Assembly: GCF_900114465.1 (NCBI RefSeq)
Contig: NZ_FOTD01000006.1
Location: 1-64,000 of the forward strand
Length of the DNA stretch: 64,000 nucleotides
Reading direction: 5' to 3'
Source of the DNA: Trichococcus palustris
GTDB taxonomy: Bacteria; Bacillota; Bacilli; Lactobacillales; Aerococcaceae
Under the pieces are notes generated by a model. The model did no database searches, was not told the origin of the DNA, and saw nothing but the letters and a program-made list of their open reading frames with translations. The position numbers and the translations under genes were made by a program. This document shows, in pieces, positions 26,706 to 33,542 of this stretch. Each line of letters begins with the position of its first letter. The first letter of the stretch is position 1.

Positions 26706-26758
26706 CAGTGTGATGCCCATTCGTTGGAATTCGTCCGGATAAATCCGAGCGCACTGAA

Positions 26759-26793
26759 AAGAGGCTGCCTTCAAAAAAGGAGACAGCCTCTTC
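26759..26793 (-). terminator. Terminator of the TerB/BrxD/helicase operon
   Basis: Stem GAGGCTGTCT / GGCAGCCTC with a T-rich loop, then TTTTC on the minus strand, about 80 bases past the helicase stop. Confidence 0.7.
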
Positions 26794-26874
26794 GTCACTT
26801 TATTCATCAATTCAAATTATGAACGAGACTTTTCCATCAGCTGTAAGGTAGCTCTCTTTCGTCGTCTGTCACCT

Positions 26875-28950
26875 TCAAATCGAAAAGAAGTTATTCAGGA
26901 TCCACTTGATTTTCAAGGTTTTGGGGACCAATTGCATGAATTTTTGATGGGCCGTCAACTCTTCGATGGCCTTCTCGTTTTTCTCCAGATACGCTACGAC
27001 AGCATCCAAAGAAACATCCTCTCCAGCGAGCCGTTCCACCATTCTTTTTATATCGGGCCCCGTAATCAAGGAATGCTTATCGTGCAATTGGTATTTTTCT
27101 CCCTCAGCGGCGATGCTCTTGATGAGCAGCAGCAATGCGATATTGAACCTCGTCCCCCTGAAGGTCACGATGCCTATGTTCGTCTGATTGTCCTCATACC
27201 AATAGTTCCCGTCATCGTAGTAGAGTTCCCTCTTCAGAAAATCAAAATCCCGTGTAATCTTATCATTGTTCAGGGTCAGATAATCTCCCGTCCGCAACAG
27301 CCTCTCCATATTTTCACGTACTTCATTGGAAACGAACCCTTCATCGCTGATGAATTTCGGGGGTCTTCCTTCTTTCGTCATTTCTACCATGATGCGCTTT
27401 GCCTTGACATCGATATCTTTCACGATCCACACCCTGCCCGCCAACAGAATTTTGCTTTCGATTTGGATATCAGGCGTAAACGGCAGACTGCCGATGCGCT
27501 CATGCTGGTAATGGACGGAAAAATCACTGGTCGTGAAAAACAGTGCGTAGAAATCCCTGGAGCGCAGCAGACGCTCCCCTTCCAAGCCGACAATTGCCTC
27601 TTCCTCCATGATTTCGATGAAATCTTTTTCCACCATGTAGTCGATCAATAACGCCAAATCCGCATCCGGTATCGCTGACCAGACCGGAAAGGTTTTATTC
27701 AGCTGCAACAATTGCGTCATCGGCATGCTGACCCTTTGGAAGAGGATCGCCATCACTTGATGCGCCAACGCATTGTAGGGCGTCTCGATCATTTCCGTGG
27801 CATCCATTTCCCCTCGTTCCAGCAAATCCAGCGCGGCATAGGTCTGAAGCATCTCCCATGAGTCATCCTCCACGATATGCAGGATGCTTTGATGGGTTCG
27901 CCGTCCGCTGCGTCCCAGTCTTTGGCTGAGAGAAGATGTTGACGGTGGGGAGCCATACTGCACCACGCTGTCCACCGATCCGATGTCTATGCCCAATTCC
28001 AAGGTGGAGGTGCAGGTGATCGTGAACAACTGATCCTCGTTGTTTTTGGCAAAAAATTCCACTTCCTCACGCAAAAGTTTGTCCACCGATGAGTGATGGG
28101 CAAAATAGCGGATGGGTGCGTGCTCTTTTTTTGCCATCTTATCCAGTTTATGGGTGATTTCTTCCACTCGGTTGCGGGAATTCGGAAAAATCAGCATCGT
28201 TTCCGTTTTGGAATACTGATAGATAGCCGCCAAGGATTCCCTTGCAACGAACGGACCCGCCTCACCACTCGTGTAGTCTATCGTGATGAGCAGATCATTT
28301 TTTTCGCGGTCCACGAGAATATCCGTATCCCGCTGGCTGCCGAAGAAGGCTTTCGCATAGCCGAAATCCTTCTTGTTCAAGGTTGCACTCATCGCGATGA
28401 AACGGGGAGATTGCATGAATTGGCTGATCCGCTGCAGCAGCGATTGCAGGTGAATGCCCCGTTCCGTCCCCAGAAAACTGTGCAGTTCATCGACGATGAT
28501 CCATTCTACCCCTTTGAAGAGGTGCTGCGCTTCACCAGGACGGTTCACCAGCATTCCCTCAATCGATTCTGGCGTAATCAACAGAACGCCTTTCGGTTGG
28601 TTCACAATTTTTCTTTTCTGCGCTTGGGAAACTTCACCGTGCCATGGCGTGATTGGCACATCCAAATACTGGCAGAGTTCGCTGATGCGCTGAAATTGAT
28701 CATTGATCAGGGCTTTCAGAGGAGAGATGTACAGCACCTTCAGTCCCGTTTCCCAATCATCCACACTATTCAGCGCCGGAATGAATGCTGCTTCCGTTTT
28801 TCCCGATGCCGTCGGAGCGGACAGGATGAGGTTATGATCGGTATTGGCAACCTGTTTGATGGCGGCACTCTGAATGCTCGTCAAGCTAGGCCACCCTTTA
28901 TCATAGATGTACTGCTGGATGTCTCTGCTGAGACTATCAAATGCCTGCAT
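26875..28950 (-). CDS. Lhr-like DEAD/DEAH helicase (BrxHI-like)
   Basis: The 691-residue superfamily II helicase has a full motif set: Q-like LTSIQSAAI (23-31), motif I SAPTASGKT (44-52), Ia SPLKALINDQ (76-85), LLITPES (123-129), II DELH (154-157), III SAT (188-190), V TSTLELGIDIG (314-324) and VI QRLGRSGRR (343-351). The DELH box and VI motif are those of Lhr and of BREX BrxHI helicases, but the C-terminal half is unlike full Lhr and much shorter. It is the last gene of the operon, and its ATG shares one base with the ATPase stop codon. Unwinding or translocating on nucleic acid is expected; the target is unknown. Confidence 0.85.
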   Translation of the reverse strand: MQAFDSLSRDIQQYIYDKGWPSLTSIQSAAIKQVANTDHNLILSAPTASGKTEAAFIPALNSVDDWETGLKVLYISPLKALINDQFQRISELCQYLDVPITPWHGEVSQAQKRKIVNQPKGVLLITPESIEGMLVNRPGEAQHLFKGVEWIIVDELHSFLGTERGIHLQSLLQRISQFMQSPRFIAMSATLNKKDFGYAKAFFGSQRDTDILVDREKNDLLITIDYTSGEAGPFVARESLAAIYQYSKTETMLIFPNSRNRVEEITHKLDKMAKKEHAPIRYFAHHSSVDKLLREEVEFFAKNNEDQLFTITCTSTLELGIDIGSVDSVVQYGSPPSTSSLSQRLGRSGRRTHQSILHIVEDDSWEMLQTYAALDLLERGEMDATEMIETPYNALAHQVMAILFQRVSMPMTQLLQLNKTFPVWSAIPDADLALLIDYMVEKDFIEIMEEEAIVGLEGERLLRSRDFYALFFTTSDFSVHYQHERIGSLPFTPDIQIESKILLAGRVWIVKDIDVKAKRIMVEMTKEGRPPKFISDEGFVSNEVRENMERLLRTGDYLTLNNDKITRDFDFLKRELYYDDGNYWYEDNQTNIGIVTFRGTRFNIALLLLIKSIAAEGEKYQLHDKHSLITGPDIKRMVERLAGEDVSLDAVVAYLEKNEKAIEELTAHQKFMQLVPKTLKIKWILNNFFSI

Positions 28951-30278
28951 CAGTAGACCTCTATTTCATCGTGGTCATCTGCGTCCTTCGCCACGACCGA
29001 TTGCCTTCTGCCAAACCGATCGGAAAGGATCTGGCCGAAAGAATGGTCCGGATTTTGGCGCTGCAAGGACAGGATTTCGATAAAGTCCTTGATGACGGAC
29101 CGTGGCGTCAAGAATGCCGCAGCTCCCGGCCGGTTCAACTGGTCTTCCATGTATTGCTGAATTTCGCTGTCCGTCACCGACAGCGCCGTTTGATAAGCCG
29201 TATTGTATATTTCCAACAACTTGGTCAAAAGGATGAAGATCTCTTCCGCTGTCAGCGGCTTCAGATCGATGACGGTACTGTTTACATTGACATAGTCTTT
29301 GTTTTTCATCAATTCGTTTCCAAAGCGTGTTTTCAAAGCGCCATAGCTGGCCAATCCTCTGCGTTCGTCATAGACCGTATTCTTCGTTGCGCCAAAATTA
29401 ATGAATAAGCCTTTTGCTTCATTGGTTTTCGTTTCGTTATACAGATTGAGGATCATTTCGTAATTTTTTTCTCGGGTCAAGGCGCGGGGCAATTTGTACA
29501 GATTGACTGATTCATCAAAGTTTATGACAAATCCCTTGTAGCCGATCTTCAGGAATAATTCCGCCAGATTCTTCAACGCGATGAGATAGTTTGCATCGTT
29601 GATGACGTTCTTGATACCCAATTCTTTGGAGGCTTCCGTTTTTGTCGTGATATCCCCACGGATCCAACGAATCGCTTCAATCTGAAGGGACATATTATCG
29701 CCCGCAATCCCTTCGAAATATTTCATCAGCGCCTGCCCGAATTCATAGGAAAGCCCCGATGAATAGAAGGAATTCGTCGTCTTCAGGATGGCATTCTCCA
29801 CCAATTTCCAATGGGACTTTTCCAGCAAAACGGGAACGGTGAGGCTATTTTCCGCGGCAATCTGCTCGAGCAGAACCTGAATCCACTGTTGGACGATCGT
29901 CTCGATGGCATTCCCGTCGCGGTTATTTTTGATGACGATCTTATTGACGACTTCATTGTACAACGCCAACGCTTTCCCGGATGAATCATAGAAACGACGC
30001 GTCGGGGTCAAGTCGATCGTGGAGACGACGAAATTCTTTTGCAGCGCCAACGATTCGATCGTCCGCAAAACAAAACTTTTCCCCGAACCGAAATCGCCTA
30101 CCCAAAAACGCAGATCGCTGTTGCCGTCTTCCAATTTTTGCAAGGTATCGATGATTTCCTTGACTTCGTTGCTTCTGCCTACCAACACATGTTGTACCCC
30201 TTTTACTGGAACAACACCTGCCTCAAGCGAGGCAATAATCGTCTGGGCATCCTTCTTTCTCAGCTTGCTTTCAGCCAT
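28950..30278 (-). CDS. BrxC/BrxD-type (DUF2791) P-loop ATPase
   Basis: The 442-residue AAA+-like ATPase has Walker A GDFGSGKS (61-68), Walker B GFVINFDE (249-256), an N-terminal HVLVGRSNEV entry motif and a C-terminal LTPRSVIKDFIEI (about 393-405). This arrangement fits the family of BREX ATP-binding proteins BrxC and BrxD. No methyltransferase (PglX), phosphatase (PglZ) or other core BREX gene is in the window. It overlaps the upstream TerB-C gene by 8 bases (ATGGCTGA) and the helicase start by 1 base, so the three products are probably made together and may form a complex. Confidence 0.8.
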   Translation of the reverse strand: MAESKLRKKDAQTIIASLEAGVVPVKGVQHVLVGRSNEVKEIIDTLQKLEDGNSDLRFWVGDFGSGKSFVLRTIESLALQKNFVVSTIDLTPTRRFYDSSGKALALYNEVVNKIVIKNNRDGNAIETIVQQWIQVLLEQIAAENSLTVPVLLEKSHWKLVENAILKTTNSFYSSGLSYEFGQALMKYFEGIAGDNMSLQIEAIRWIRGDITTKTEASKELGIKNVINDANYLIALKNLAELFLKIGYKGFVINFDESVNLYKLPRALTREKNYEMILNLYNETKTNEAKGLFINFGATKNTVYDERRGLASYGALKTRFGNELMKNKDYVNVNSTVIDLKPLTAEEIFILLTKLLEIYNTAYQTALSVTDSEIQQYMEDQLNRPGAAAFLTPRSVIKDFIEILSLQRQNPDHSFGQILSDRFGRRQSVVAKDADDHDEIEVY

Positions 30279-32094
30279 AGATCCAGTCCCTCATTTCTTC
30301 CATAAAATCCTCCTCAATGATGACCTGTTGGTGGCTGATCACCAGCACCTGATCATCAAATATTTCATACAGCACCTCATTCAATTCTGTGAAGTATGCC
30401 TGATGGAGTTTCCCTTTATTTTTTGCGTGTTCCTTGAAATCATCCAAAGATATCCCGTTGCCTTCCACTACCTGTTTGAGGAAACGCATATGCTCTGGCT
30501 CCTGTTCGCTGTCCTGTTTTTCGGATTCTTCTATATTAGAGTCCAAACTTTCTGCTTCTCTTTGCTCCACTGCCGGTGGAATCTCCGTCTCGGCAACAAT
30601 ATCCAGACTGACCGCCGAAACTAGCCCTTCGCCGGTCTCCTCTTCACGCAGATAAGTGTCAACCATATCGATGATGTTATCCAGGGCAGAATGTGATGCG
30701 GTGATTAAGGCTGTGTCCAGTTTGATTTCTCTGCGTATCGGTTGCGTGCATTCCTTTAAAAGTTCCGGCAAACTTTTGATAGGCAGATTCGGATCCGCCA
30801 GTAAACGCTGATAATCGGCCTGTCTGGTTGGATGAATGAAGCCATCCCGTTCTTTTTGCAGCGCTTTTGATACCGGCAAAGCCGTCCTTTCCATCAAGAA
30901 AATAAACAGGATGCGCTTATCCGAATCCTCGCTCTGCTTGATCACCTTCGTGGCTATCTTTTTCAAATCCGGATCTTTTGCAACATCCTCGAGCAGCACG
31001 CTGAGCTGCTCCGCCGATCGGCTTATAAGGAGATTGGCAGACTCATGCCAGACGGTCTTGTTCACGTTCCGCAAGGCTGCAATGGTTTGGTAATCCAGCT
31101 CGATCTCAATTTTTTGGCTCAGATAGCCTTGCATCTTCCGGAACGTTTCATCCGGAAAATATTTTTGCAGACTCTGCAGGCTTTCCTCAACAGGCAGCAC
31201 ACGGAGTCCCTCCACCTCCTGACGGATCGTGTTCTCGGCAAGGAGATAAAGATCCGTTGGCAGACGTACCGTTTCTGCCCAGACACGTCCATCATTCAGC
31301 GGCAGATGGAAATATTTCCTGAAATAATTATTGGGTTTGATCTTCCATTTGATGGATTCATCCTCCAGATCGCGCAATACGATCTGCAAAATGTCTACGT
31401 ATTTCGACAAGCAAAGGGCCATGACAGCCGGTACTTCAGTAAACCGCGTCACCCGTCTCGTCAGGTGATTGAAATAATCCCTTTCGGTCCCATCAAAGAT
31501 TTCTTTGTCCCGCAACATTCCCGACGGATCCCACCAAACGATTTTGGTGGAGAATGGTGTCAATCCAAATTGTTTTCTGGTCTCCTCATCCGGAATGGGT
31601 AAATTTTCCCGGCATGCGTCAACCTCATGCGCAAGGATTGTTTGGATATCCCGGGACAACATGGCTTTCAGGTCGTAGGAAAACAAATTAGCCACATGCG
31701 TATTTTCCAGCCTGTAAAACGAATAGACCACCTCTTTGGATAGCCGATATATTTCGTCAAAGACGGATACGCGGTAATAGTAACGCTCATATTTCAGATT
31801 TTTGATGTTTTTGCGTTTCTTCCTCAGTTCCACATCGACCACAGCGCATAAGCTTTCAAATAATGCGCCCATCACTTCCTCCACTTGCCTTGTAAAATTG
31901 TCATTCATTCTTAGGGGAGGTGAAACATAGCTGATCCAAGCCTCTTTCGCAGCTTTTTTTGGATGGCTCTTTTCTATGATGATCTCTCTTGGATTGATGA
32001 AAGACTCCTCGTTATTCACCAATTCAATGATCGATAATTTTTCTTCTTCGGTTAGTTGCTTATTTTTGAATATTTTATTTACGAATTCGAACAT
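30271..32094 (-). CDS. TerB-C domain protein, first gene of a putative defence operon
   Basis: The 607-residue protein has a long N-terminal alpha-helical region with RxxxVSVFDEIYRLSKEVV, WWDPSGMLRDKEIFDG, and a middle region with RNVNKTVWHESANLL. An acidic linker (about 480-530) leads to a C-terminal module of about 75 residues (FLKQVVEGNGISLDDF, LNEVLYEIFDDQVL, IEEDFMEEMRDWI) resembling TerB-C. No enzyme motif is visible; it may be the sensor or scaffold. ATG 32094 has AAGGGGGG 8 bases upstream; the TTG at 32115 overlaps that site. Recognition rests mainly on the C-terminal module and the gene context. Confidence 0.65.
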   Translation of the reverse strand: MFEFVNKIFKNKQLTEEEKLSIIELVNNEESFINPREIIIEKSHPKKAAKEAWISYVSPPLRMNDNFTRQVEEVMGALFESLCAVVDVELRKKRKNIKNLKYERYYYRVSVFDEIYRLSKEVVYSFYRLENTHVANLFSYDLKAMLSRDIQTILAHEVDACRENLPIPDEETRKQFGLTPFSTKIVWWDPSGMLRDKEIFDGTERDYFNHLTRRVTRFTEVPAVMALCLSKYVDILQIVLRDLEDESIKWKIKPNNYFRKYFHLPLNDGRVWAETVRLPTDLYLLAENTIRQEVEGLRVLPVEESLQSLQKYFPDETFRKMQGYLSQKIEIELDYQTIAALRNVNKTVWHESANLLISRSAEQLSVLLEDVAKDPDLKKIATKVIKQSEDSDKRILFIFLMERTALPVSKALQKERDGFIHPTRQADYQRLLADPNLPIKSLPELLKECTQPIRREIKLDTALITASHSALDNIIDMVDTYLREEETGEGLVSAVSLDIVAETEIPPAVEQREAESLDSNIEESEKQDSEQEPEHMRFLKQVVEGNGISLDDFKEHAKNKGKLHQAYFTELNEVLYEIFDDQVLVISHQQVIIEEDFMEEMRDWIYG

Positions 32095-32138
32095 TTTGGA
32101 GGCCCCCCTTCCCAAGTCACTGCAGAGAATATGCCCTA

Positions 32139-32167
32139 AGTATACTTCTTATAGCGCGCATATTCAA
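32139..32167 (-). promoter_or_regulatory. Promoter of the TerB/BrxD/helicase operon
   Basis: TTGAAT (32162-32167), a 17-base spacer and TATACT (32139-32144) on the minus strand, 45 bases ahead of the first start codon. This is the best promoter in the gap 32095-32558, which otherwise holds only short unsupported frames. Confidence 0.7.
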
Positions 32168-32179
32168 GAACGCACGTTC
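32168..32179. promoter_or_regulatory. LexA-like (SOS) box
   Basis: The palindrome GAACGCACGTTC directly abuts the -35 element. It fits the core of the Gram-positive LexA consensus CGAACRNRYGTTYG, including the R, R, Y and Y positions; only the outermost C and G differ. This suggests SOS control of the operon, although an 8-base fixed core can occur by chance about once in 65 kb. Confidence 0.5.
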
Positions 32180-32558
32180 TATGCAACTTGGATTAAAGAG
32201 CCCTCCTCATTGCATTTAAATAAAAATTTCTGATTTTCTATCGATTTGGAGGTTTTACATGGACATTATCCTATAGTTTCCTTACAAATCGCCTCAGATA
32301 AAACTATACCGTAATTTGCGGGAAATGGAATGGCTATAAATATTTCAATCAATTCCAAACCTATATGGTCGTGTCCCACCTCATTCCACCCTTATCATTT
32401 TCCCTAAGGCAACAAAGGTGCTACACTTTAATTAACAGAAAGCACTTATCAATCCTATGTATCTCAGAACCTCATGAGCTCAATTGCAACAGCTGCCAAT
32501 CTCTCATTCATGAAAAGAACCTCGTCACCAGCAGCATCATCGATAAGGAGAGAATATA

Positions 32559-33542
32559 ATGAACACGCTACGTAATTATGTGGACTCGGTCTTCTTGAAT
32601 CTGCCGCAGACTCCCGAAATGGCAACGCGCAAGCAAGAGATGATTATGAACATGGAGGCCAAGTATCAACAATTATTGGCAGATGGAAAAAACGAAAACG
32701 AAGCGATCGGCGCGGCCTTGGCGGAATTCGGCCATGTCGACGACAGCAGCCGGGCACCAGCCGCAACGCCCAATACGGAGATAATCCCTGAAGGCGCGAT
32801 TCATCTGTCCGCCGCCGAAGCGGACGATTATTTGGACCATCGGCATAAATTTGCCTTTGCCATGGCGGCGGGCGTGTTCCTCTGCATCATGGCGCCGGCT
32901 GCCATGATCCTGTTCCGGGAAATTCCGCAGTTCTTTGCGGTCACTGCAAGAGTCTCCCAAAATACCATTGATGTCCTCGCATTGGTTCCGCTCTTCGTTT
33001 TTGTGGCTGCCGCCGTCGCTCTGTTCATTATCTATGGGGCAAAGGACAGCGAATACGGCTTGAACAATCAGATCATCCATCTGGACGCCCAAACGCGGGC
33101 AGACCTGAGCAAGGAACAACGGGAATCAAAATCCCGTACAACCGTCGCCATCGCTGCCGGTGTCGTCCTCTGCATCCTGGCACCCATCGCTTTGCTGCTG
33201 TCGGTCCTTCTCCTTGGCAATGAAAATCCTTTACCCGTCGTCTTCCTGTTGAGCTTCGTGGCAGTCGGCGTGTTCCTGTTCGTATTCTATGGCATCCAGA
33301 TCGATTCCTACACAATCCTCCTTTCCGGCAGAAACAATTCGCCGGAGCAGCTGCGCACCAAAAAAGTGACGGATACCGTAGCGGGCGTCGTCTTCCCGCT
33401 TGCCGCTGCCGTCTATCTTATCGCCGGATTCCTCTATAACGCCTGGGCGACGGCCTGGATCATCTTCCCGGTCGTGGGCATCCTTTTCGGAGTATTCGCC
33501 GCCGTCTATGGTGGCTATAGCGAGCTCAAAAAGAAAAGATGA
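32559..33542 (+). CDS. Membrane protein with permease-prefix (HAAS-like) domain
   Basis: The 327-residue protein starts with a soluble helical domain (about 1-65, LRNYVDSVFLNLPQTPE, ADGKNENEAIGAALAEFG) of the permease-prefix/HAAS type, then six to seven membrane segments (about 95-325). Such proteins usually follow a PadR-type regulator; none is next to it here. Two similar halves (AFAMAAGVFLCIMAPAAM and TTVAIAAGVVLCILAPIA) suggest an internal duplication. Function is unknown. AAGGAGAG lies 6-8 bases before the ATG. Confidence 0.7.
   Translation: MNTLRNYVDSVFLNLPQTPEMATRKQEMIMNMEAKYQQLLADGKNENEAIGAALAEFGHVDDSSRAPAATPNTEIIPEGAIHLSAAEADDYLDHRHKFAFAMAAGVFLCIMAPAAMILFREIPQFFAVTARVSQNTIDVLALVPLFVFVAAAVALFIIYGAKDSEYGLNNQIIHLDAQTRADLSKEQRESKSRTTVAIAAGVVLCILAPIALLLSVLLLGNENPLPVVFLLSFVAVGVFLFVFYGIQIDSYTILLSGRNNSPEQLRTKKVTDTVAGVVFPLAAAVYLIAGFLYNAWATAWIIFPVVGILFGVFAAVYGGYSELKKKR

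Follow-up and report, generated by a model that had tools for sequence, protein, structure and literature searches.

A probable Shango anti-phage operon of a clade without detectable TerB_N borders an insertion hotspot in Trichococcus

We analysed a stretch of 64,000 nucleotides from Trichococcus palustris (assembly GCF_900114465.1, contig NZ_FOTD01000006.1, positions 1 to 64,000; hereafter the window), in which three consecutive minus-strand genes, sngA, sngB and sngC, occupy positions 26875-32094. This operon is very probably a Shango anti-phage system belonging to a clade that lacks TerB_N, carried on the chromosome, where it borders a defence hotspot. It is a divergent and unusually fixed variant of a known system and not a new triad. 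A first-pass annotation, made from the letters of the window, had rightly proposed a defence candidate but had treated the triad as undescribed; PADLOC names all three genes as Shango. The published system consists of a TerB-like protein, an ATPase and a DEAD/DEAH helicase, encoded in the defence hotspot cDHS1 of Pseudomonas aeruginosa PA14; in Pseudomonas it is reported to lower plating by a factor of 10-100 for many of the phages tested, though not for all, and it had earlier been reported from E. coli (PMC10250203). Like the PA14 system, the Trichococcus operon comprises these three kinds of gene in a chromosomal defence hotspot. It differs in that its SngA has no detectable TerB_N, and in that it is present in every sampled genome and forms the hotspot edge, whereas the PA14 system lies in the variable part.

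The identification follows from PADLOC and Pfam profiles matching all three proteins, these libraries holding described families only. The best PADLOC match of SngB is SngB (2.1e-141, 470 bits; BrxD, 5.4e-44, 149 bits), and Pfam BrxC_BrxD (PF10923) covers its residues 7-418 (9.5e-117). SngC is best matched by the SngC profile (3.9e-187, 622 bits; BrxHI, 2.1e-115, 385 bits), together with Pfam DEAD (2.2e-34) and Helicase_C (6.8e-17). SngA is the sole PADLOC family listed for the first protein (3.5e-15, residues 362-605), in which Pfam TerB_C (PF15615) is matched above the Pfam cut-off at residues 447-601 (1.3e-11) and no enzyme domain was found. TerB_C, the only ter family sought, has this sngA as its single match in the window's genome. 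SngB contains GDFGSGKS and FVINFDE, which we take to be a Walker A and a Walker B-like motif, and SngC contains TASGKT, DELH, SAT and QRLGRSGR, presumably motifs of superfamily 2 (SF2) helicases; the key residues of both sets are invariant across nine aligned sequences, the window's among them. The proteins are therefore as first annotated: a TerB-C-like end without enzyme motif, a Walker-bearing protein of BrxC/BrxD style and an SF2 helicase of the BrxHI/Lhr type. No nuclease domain was matched in SngA, SngB or SngC with Pfam, the ResIII match in SngC corresponding to the helicase part of type III enzymes.

In the list of open reading frames (ORFs), the genes overlap successively by 8 bases and 1 base, as the first reading had it. 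We place the sngA start at the ATG at 32094, preceded by AAGGGGGG, instead of the TTG at 32115 given in that list. One promoter and one terminator had also been claimed. The terminator stands: the minus strand of 26752-26800 can form a stem followed by T's, with a folding energy of -23.9 kcal/mol (z -4.9), a structure that the consensus scan missed. The promoter does not go beyond a candidate, the same scan finding 6 promoter-like sites against 8.4 in shuffles, hence no enrichment.

A Shango clade without TerB_N

TerB_N was not found in the SngA of the window, either with Pfam or with a TerB_N profile that we built from members of the other clade and that could miss highly divergent forms. A tree was made of 30 SngB proteins, for which the tool warns of long branches meeting; in it the window's protein belongs to a 13-row group (support 100/99) comprising six Trichococcus, five members of the same bacterial family and two Bacteroidota plasmids. 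None of the 13 SngA proteins belonging to this clade has a TerB_N that we could find. Among the other 17 rows TerB_N is present in 16, in an SngA that is whole, split or cut; the SngA of the remaining row is truncated too far for a verdict. As first assigned, the TerB_N label requires 4 changes on the tree, versus 9.8-9.9 in shuffles. The rows breaking the pattern are L037 and L047, where sngA is split and TerB_N lies in the first piece, and L046, where sngA is cut by the contig end; L063, unlabelled in the tree, also has TerB_N. The two split genes each appear as two ORFs, at L037:7478-9358 in a genome of the same order and at L047:3618-5994 in a viral contig.

Profile comparison aligns the window's SngA with the TerB_N-bearing type over only 52 columns near the C-terminus. 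With the SngA of operons ordered B-C-A it aligns over 414 columns (99.6% probability). A TerB_N hidden in the window's SngA was considered and rejected, given this short C-terminal alignment and the silence of the TerB_N profile. The clade includes Shango-like operons from the same family (L031-L035) and from Bacteroidota plasmids (L040, L043), whose SngA proteins, like that of the window, carry TerB_C and no TerB_N (for L034 from the SngB-tree analysis and our own TerB_N profile only). Unlike the window, L031-L034 have the order B-C-A and SngA proteins of 470-483 amino acids (aa), and the SngA of L043 has N-terminal TM2 and SH3 segments; in L035 the TM2 match is below the cut-off. Judged by these profiles, the existence of a clade without TerB_N narrows the shared minimum of Shango to TerB_C, SngB and SngC. 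PF05099 (TerB), listed for Shango SngA (PMC10952713), is unmatched in the window's protein. Of the three TerB_N-bearing SngA proteins scanned (L036, L041, L042) only that of L042 matches it, so that its absence is not diagnostic.

An AlphaFold2 model of SngA, built with ten close relatives, was poor (mean pLDDT 53.7) and gave no Foldseek match in the PDB at E <= 0.001. The best VIA-align score (Z 5.7) was to helical repeats, which may merely be a common arrangement, and was not used.

Fixation in the genus and divergence of SngA

With one genome per species, SngB was found at the locus in 13/13 Trichococcus genomes, the window's own included. In the sample of 100 genomes from the order it was present in 20, belonging to 5 of 41 genera, and not found in the other 36 genera. 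SngC adjoins SngB in 13/13 genomes; its profile also matches other helicases (13/14 control genomes) and only matches at the Shango locus were counted. Reading frames are open for sngA in 12/13, sngB in 13/13 and sngC in 12/13 genomes. The interrupted sngC is split in frame into two pieces in a 51%-complete genome (G008). The sngA of Trichococcus pasteurii DSM 2381 (L010:6149-8008) has one in-frame stop about a quarter of the way in, its sngB and sngC being open. Nine of the ten nearest named loci are from Trichococcus, with SngB 95-97% identical. The tenth (L011; SngB 96%) bears the record name Sedimentibacter sp. SX930; its contig coincides with that of the same-genus genome G012, and the name looks wrong. 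For comparison, Cas1 was found in 8 of these 13 genomes and PglZ in 7, six of them above the cut-off. The restriction family HSDR_N was found in 11/13 genomes, or 11/11 good ones; it was not followed to a shared locus, and near-fixation is not unique to Shango.

Outside the chromosomes, 690 plasmid records contain an SngB relative, all less than 60% identical, and the order A-B-C was seen in 14/14 of those opened. No SngB relative was found in phage records, and viral contigs gave four loci, 31-35% identical. Phage-borne copies were considered and rejected.

The three proteins have not evolved alike. Within the genus, pairs of SngA proteins are on average 77.7% identical (12 genomes), compared with 96.4% for SngB (13) and 94.4% for SngC (12), L010 with its in-frame stop being left out of the SngA protein counts and L006 with its split frame out of those for SngC. 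Median ratios of nonsynonymous to synonymous rates (dN/dS) are 0.197, 0.039 and 0.052, respectively. Over the same 66 pairs, the mean proportion of nonsynonymous differences (pN) is 0.115 for SngA and 0.018 for SngB: the SngA protein changes about six times faster than SngB. The excess is spread along SngA. It is highest in a variable acidic stretch within the Pfam TerB_C span (alignment columns 501-560, pN 0.205), and the slowest columns, 551-610, are strongly conserved (pN 0.055).

The operon is also mosaic. In a four-gamete permutation test, compatible sites are clustered in sngA (z -7.1, 0/1000 permutations), weakly so in sngC (p 0.012) and sngB (p 0.045), and not in the neighbouring xanthine permease gene (p 0.64). 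Between L011 and L039, identity falls from 99.0% in the permease and 98.7% in sngC to 95.2% in sngB and 79.8% in sngA; between L002 and L010 it is 99.1% in the permease, 91.9% in sngB and 87.8% in sngC. Read from the alignments, these mosaic identities are explained by homologous exchange whose breakpoints fall inside the operon or at its edge. In the L011/L039 pair, the foreign side may be either the near-identical flank or the divergent sngA. The mean proportion of synonymous differences (pS) is alike for sngB (0.326) and the permease (0.331; 36 pairs), but the rank correlation is only 0.43, and that of sngA is 0.17 (28 pairs). These low correlations rule out purely vertical inheritance, and the locus is therefore fixed without being strictly vertical.

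A divergently oriented gene encoding a hydrophobic protein faces sngA; the gap that separates the two is an insertion hotspot, and Shango borders other defence genes in 5/9 readable genomes. Both edges could be read in nine genomes, the window's included, and were not resolved in G002, G008, G009 and G010. In the window the gap measures 464 bp; G004 and G007 have a gap of about 1.2 kb and G012 one of about 1.9 kb, and in five genomes it is from about 17 to 34 kb, as worked out from coordinates. CRISPR-Cas (clustered regularly interspaced short palindromic repeats and associated proteins) lies in the gap of 5/9 readable genomes, as type I-C in two and as type II with BREX (bacteriophage exclusion) genes in three. 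A small defence operon would thus make the constant edge of an insertion hotspot.

Alternative readings and a possible mechanism

Several observations weigh against the reading of the operon as a Shango defence system. Defence systems are not usually fixed across a genus, and this fixation might hint at a household role. The PADLOC profile covers no more of SngA than its last ~240 residues, and the protein lacks TerB_N. In four of the nine readable genomes, the window's among them, the gap showed no defence gene. Moreover, three of the six above-cut-off PglZ genes (G002, G005, G012) and three of nine Cas1 genes (G002, G009, G010) lie on contigs other than that of Shango, and of the two Cas1 genes in G006 one is distant from it; the hotspot is therefore not the sole home of defence genes. 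In all 12 segments of SngA pN is below pS, which means that positive selection is not demonstrated, fast change being also expected from relaxed constraint. Finally, we found no phage test for this TerB_N-less clade.

Alternatively, the operon might serve DNA repair or replication as a household complex, in which an Lhr-like helicase comes with a dedicated loader, and be fixed since it is useful without phages. Carriage by all 13 genomes, the strong purifying selection on SngB and SngC and the match of SngC to the ligase-associated DNA damage response helicase (TIGR04121) fit such a role, but that match stays at 227.5 bits, below the curated cut-off of 850, whereas the SngC profile scores 622 bits. 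We hold this explanation to be unlikely, since SngB is not found in 36/41 genera of the order, sngA carries an in-frame stop in one species, plasmids bear SngB relatives in 690 records with the triad in every one opened, and defence genes are neighbours in 5/9 genomes. It is likewise quite unlikely that Shango is decaying here, SngA losing its function and its divergence reflecting relaxation and no arms race. The stop in T. pasteurii, the split sngC and the low pN relative to pS agree with decay; nearly all frames are nevertheless open, and columns 551-610 of SngA are strongly conserved.

Descent from a type 2 BREX whose core genes were lost is very unlikely, although BrxD and BrxHI, the mark of that type (PMC12839542), are homologous to the ATPase-helicase pair of the window, similarly encoded side by side, and although SngB and SngC match their PADLOC profiles. 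The Shango profiles score far higher (470 versus 149 and 622 versus 385 bits), so that the family is a different one, and a TerB_C protein is the third partner. PglZ was not found in the window's genome (0/1), in agreement with the first-pass annotation, and PADLOC matched no BREX family among the ten other ORFs of the window; the genome was not searched for PglX, BrxC or PglW. A complete BREX locus near the triad in relatives had been named as grounds for abandoning the original proposal. These grounds are given in part: BREX genes do lie in the same hotspot in 3/9 readable genomes and were not found in the other six gaps; they are type 1-like (in G001 BrxA, BrxB, BrxC, PglX and PglZ, thus with a BrxC of its own) and separated from Shango by other systems. 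In ten 8-kb plasmid stretches the triad occurs without any BREX-named gene. SngC, BrxHI, DruE and DpdJ have been presented as immune helicases that may form a clade of their own (PMC12278908), in contrast to the description of BrxHI as Ski2-like (PMC12839542).

For the Shango operon, the roles of SngB and SngC can be proposed from their homology to BrxD and BrxHI. BrxD is described as an ORC/Cdc6 AAA+ ATPase, suggested to load or activate BrxHI, a helicase that carries DNA-binding modules and has a C-terminus of Lhr type (PMC12839542). In the likeliest scheme, the rapidly evolving body of SngA would recognise a phage-dependent signal, and its TerB_C end would contact the ATPase SngB; SngB, ORC/Cdc6-like by homology, would assemble on DNA and load or activate SngC, which would unwind or remodel invading or damaged DNA and so block phage replication. 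Since no nuclease domain was matched, cutting is less likely than a replication block, provided that the system does not call in a nuclease of the host. The sense, load and unwind scheme of the first reading is plausible, but we rate the scheme as a whole at somewhat below an even chance. Being fast, modular and enzyme-less, SngA appears the best candidate for sensing; this role, the loader step of SngB and the activity of Shango in this host are inferred. The titles and abstract openings of the literature searched give no Shango mechanism, which is not proof of absence, and the listing for Trichococcus with defense systems showed only seemingly unrelated papers.

More tentatively, Trichococcus Shango could be a core innate immune locus, in which sngB and sngC are kept, sngA is a polymorphic sensor whose alleles diversify and pass from species to species through homologous recombination, and the region before sngA serves as a docking site for BREX, CRISPR-Cas, AbiE and SoFic. 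If so, SngA would set which phages are sensed and sngA allele swaps would predict phage range, every sampled Trichococcus species, with divergent, recombining sngA alleles, amounting to a natural experiment on SngA as a sensor.

Hotspot contents and neighbouring genes

Table 1. Features of the Shango locus in the window and of related operons (coordinates without a locus prefix refer to the window)
Feature	Position	Strand	Remarks
sngA	30271..32094	-	607 aa; C-terminal TerB_C, no enzyme domain; presumed sensor or adaptor
sngB	28950..30278	-	442 aa; P-loop ATPase of BrxC/BrxD type
sngC	26875..28950	-	691 aa; SF2 DEAD/DEAH helicase of BrxHI/Lhr-like kind
Intrinsic terminator after sngC	26761..26790	-	predicted from the fold of 26752-26800
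Candidate promoter TTGAAT-17-TATACT	32139..32167	-	upstream of the sngA ATG; weak evidence
Divergent intergenic region	32095..32558	.	464 bp; unoccupied form of the defence insertion hotspot of the genus
Gene for 327-aa hydrophobic protein	32559..33542	+	other hotspot edge; divergent from sngA
B-C-A operon, other genus of the same family	L031:2027-7011		
B-C-A operon, other genus of the same family	L032:4057-8928		
B-C-A operon, other genus of the same family	L033:3611-8503		
B-C-A operon, other genus of the same family	L034:13511-18382		

The hydrophobic protein at the far edge has no Pfam or PADLOC match and, from its sequence, is probably a membrane protein. The xanthine permease lies close by on the sngC side of 10/13 loci (nine by clustering, plus L005).

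Among the occupied gaps, that of G005 contains AbiEi and the type I-C genes Cas3, Cas8c and Cas7c, and that of G011 Cas8c and Cas1. In G001, AbiEi, BrxA, BrxB, BrxC, PglX, PglZ, SoFic, Cas9 and Cas1 were tested gene by gene. BrxB, PglZ and Cas1 in G003, and AbiEii, SoFic, PglZ and Cas1 in G006, were likewise tested, the remainder in both being assigned by matching ORF starts. The short gap of G012 holds an ORF from a family whose member in L009 matches a dicarboxylate symporter.

On the sngA side of G001, L049:7620-15243 encodes a type II CRISPR-Cas with a Cas9 of 1109 aa and a Cas1, both tested, a Cas2-sized ORF and a seeming repeat array, judged from a repeated motif in translated ORFs; similar ORFs occur in G003 and G006. 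The type 1-like BREX genes of the hotspot are followed by SoFic where brxL might be expected, at L049:143-7495 and L057:14587-19385 in G001 and at L059:1283-13610 in G006. BrxL was unmatched among the ORFs scanned in these stretches and was not sought elsewhere. A HicB-like antitoxin gene lies directly upstream of sngA at L002:1962-2390, and ORFs of its family are found in 9/13 loci of the genus, upstream of sngA in eight and after sngC in L009.

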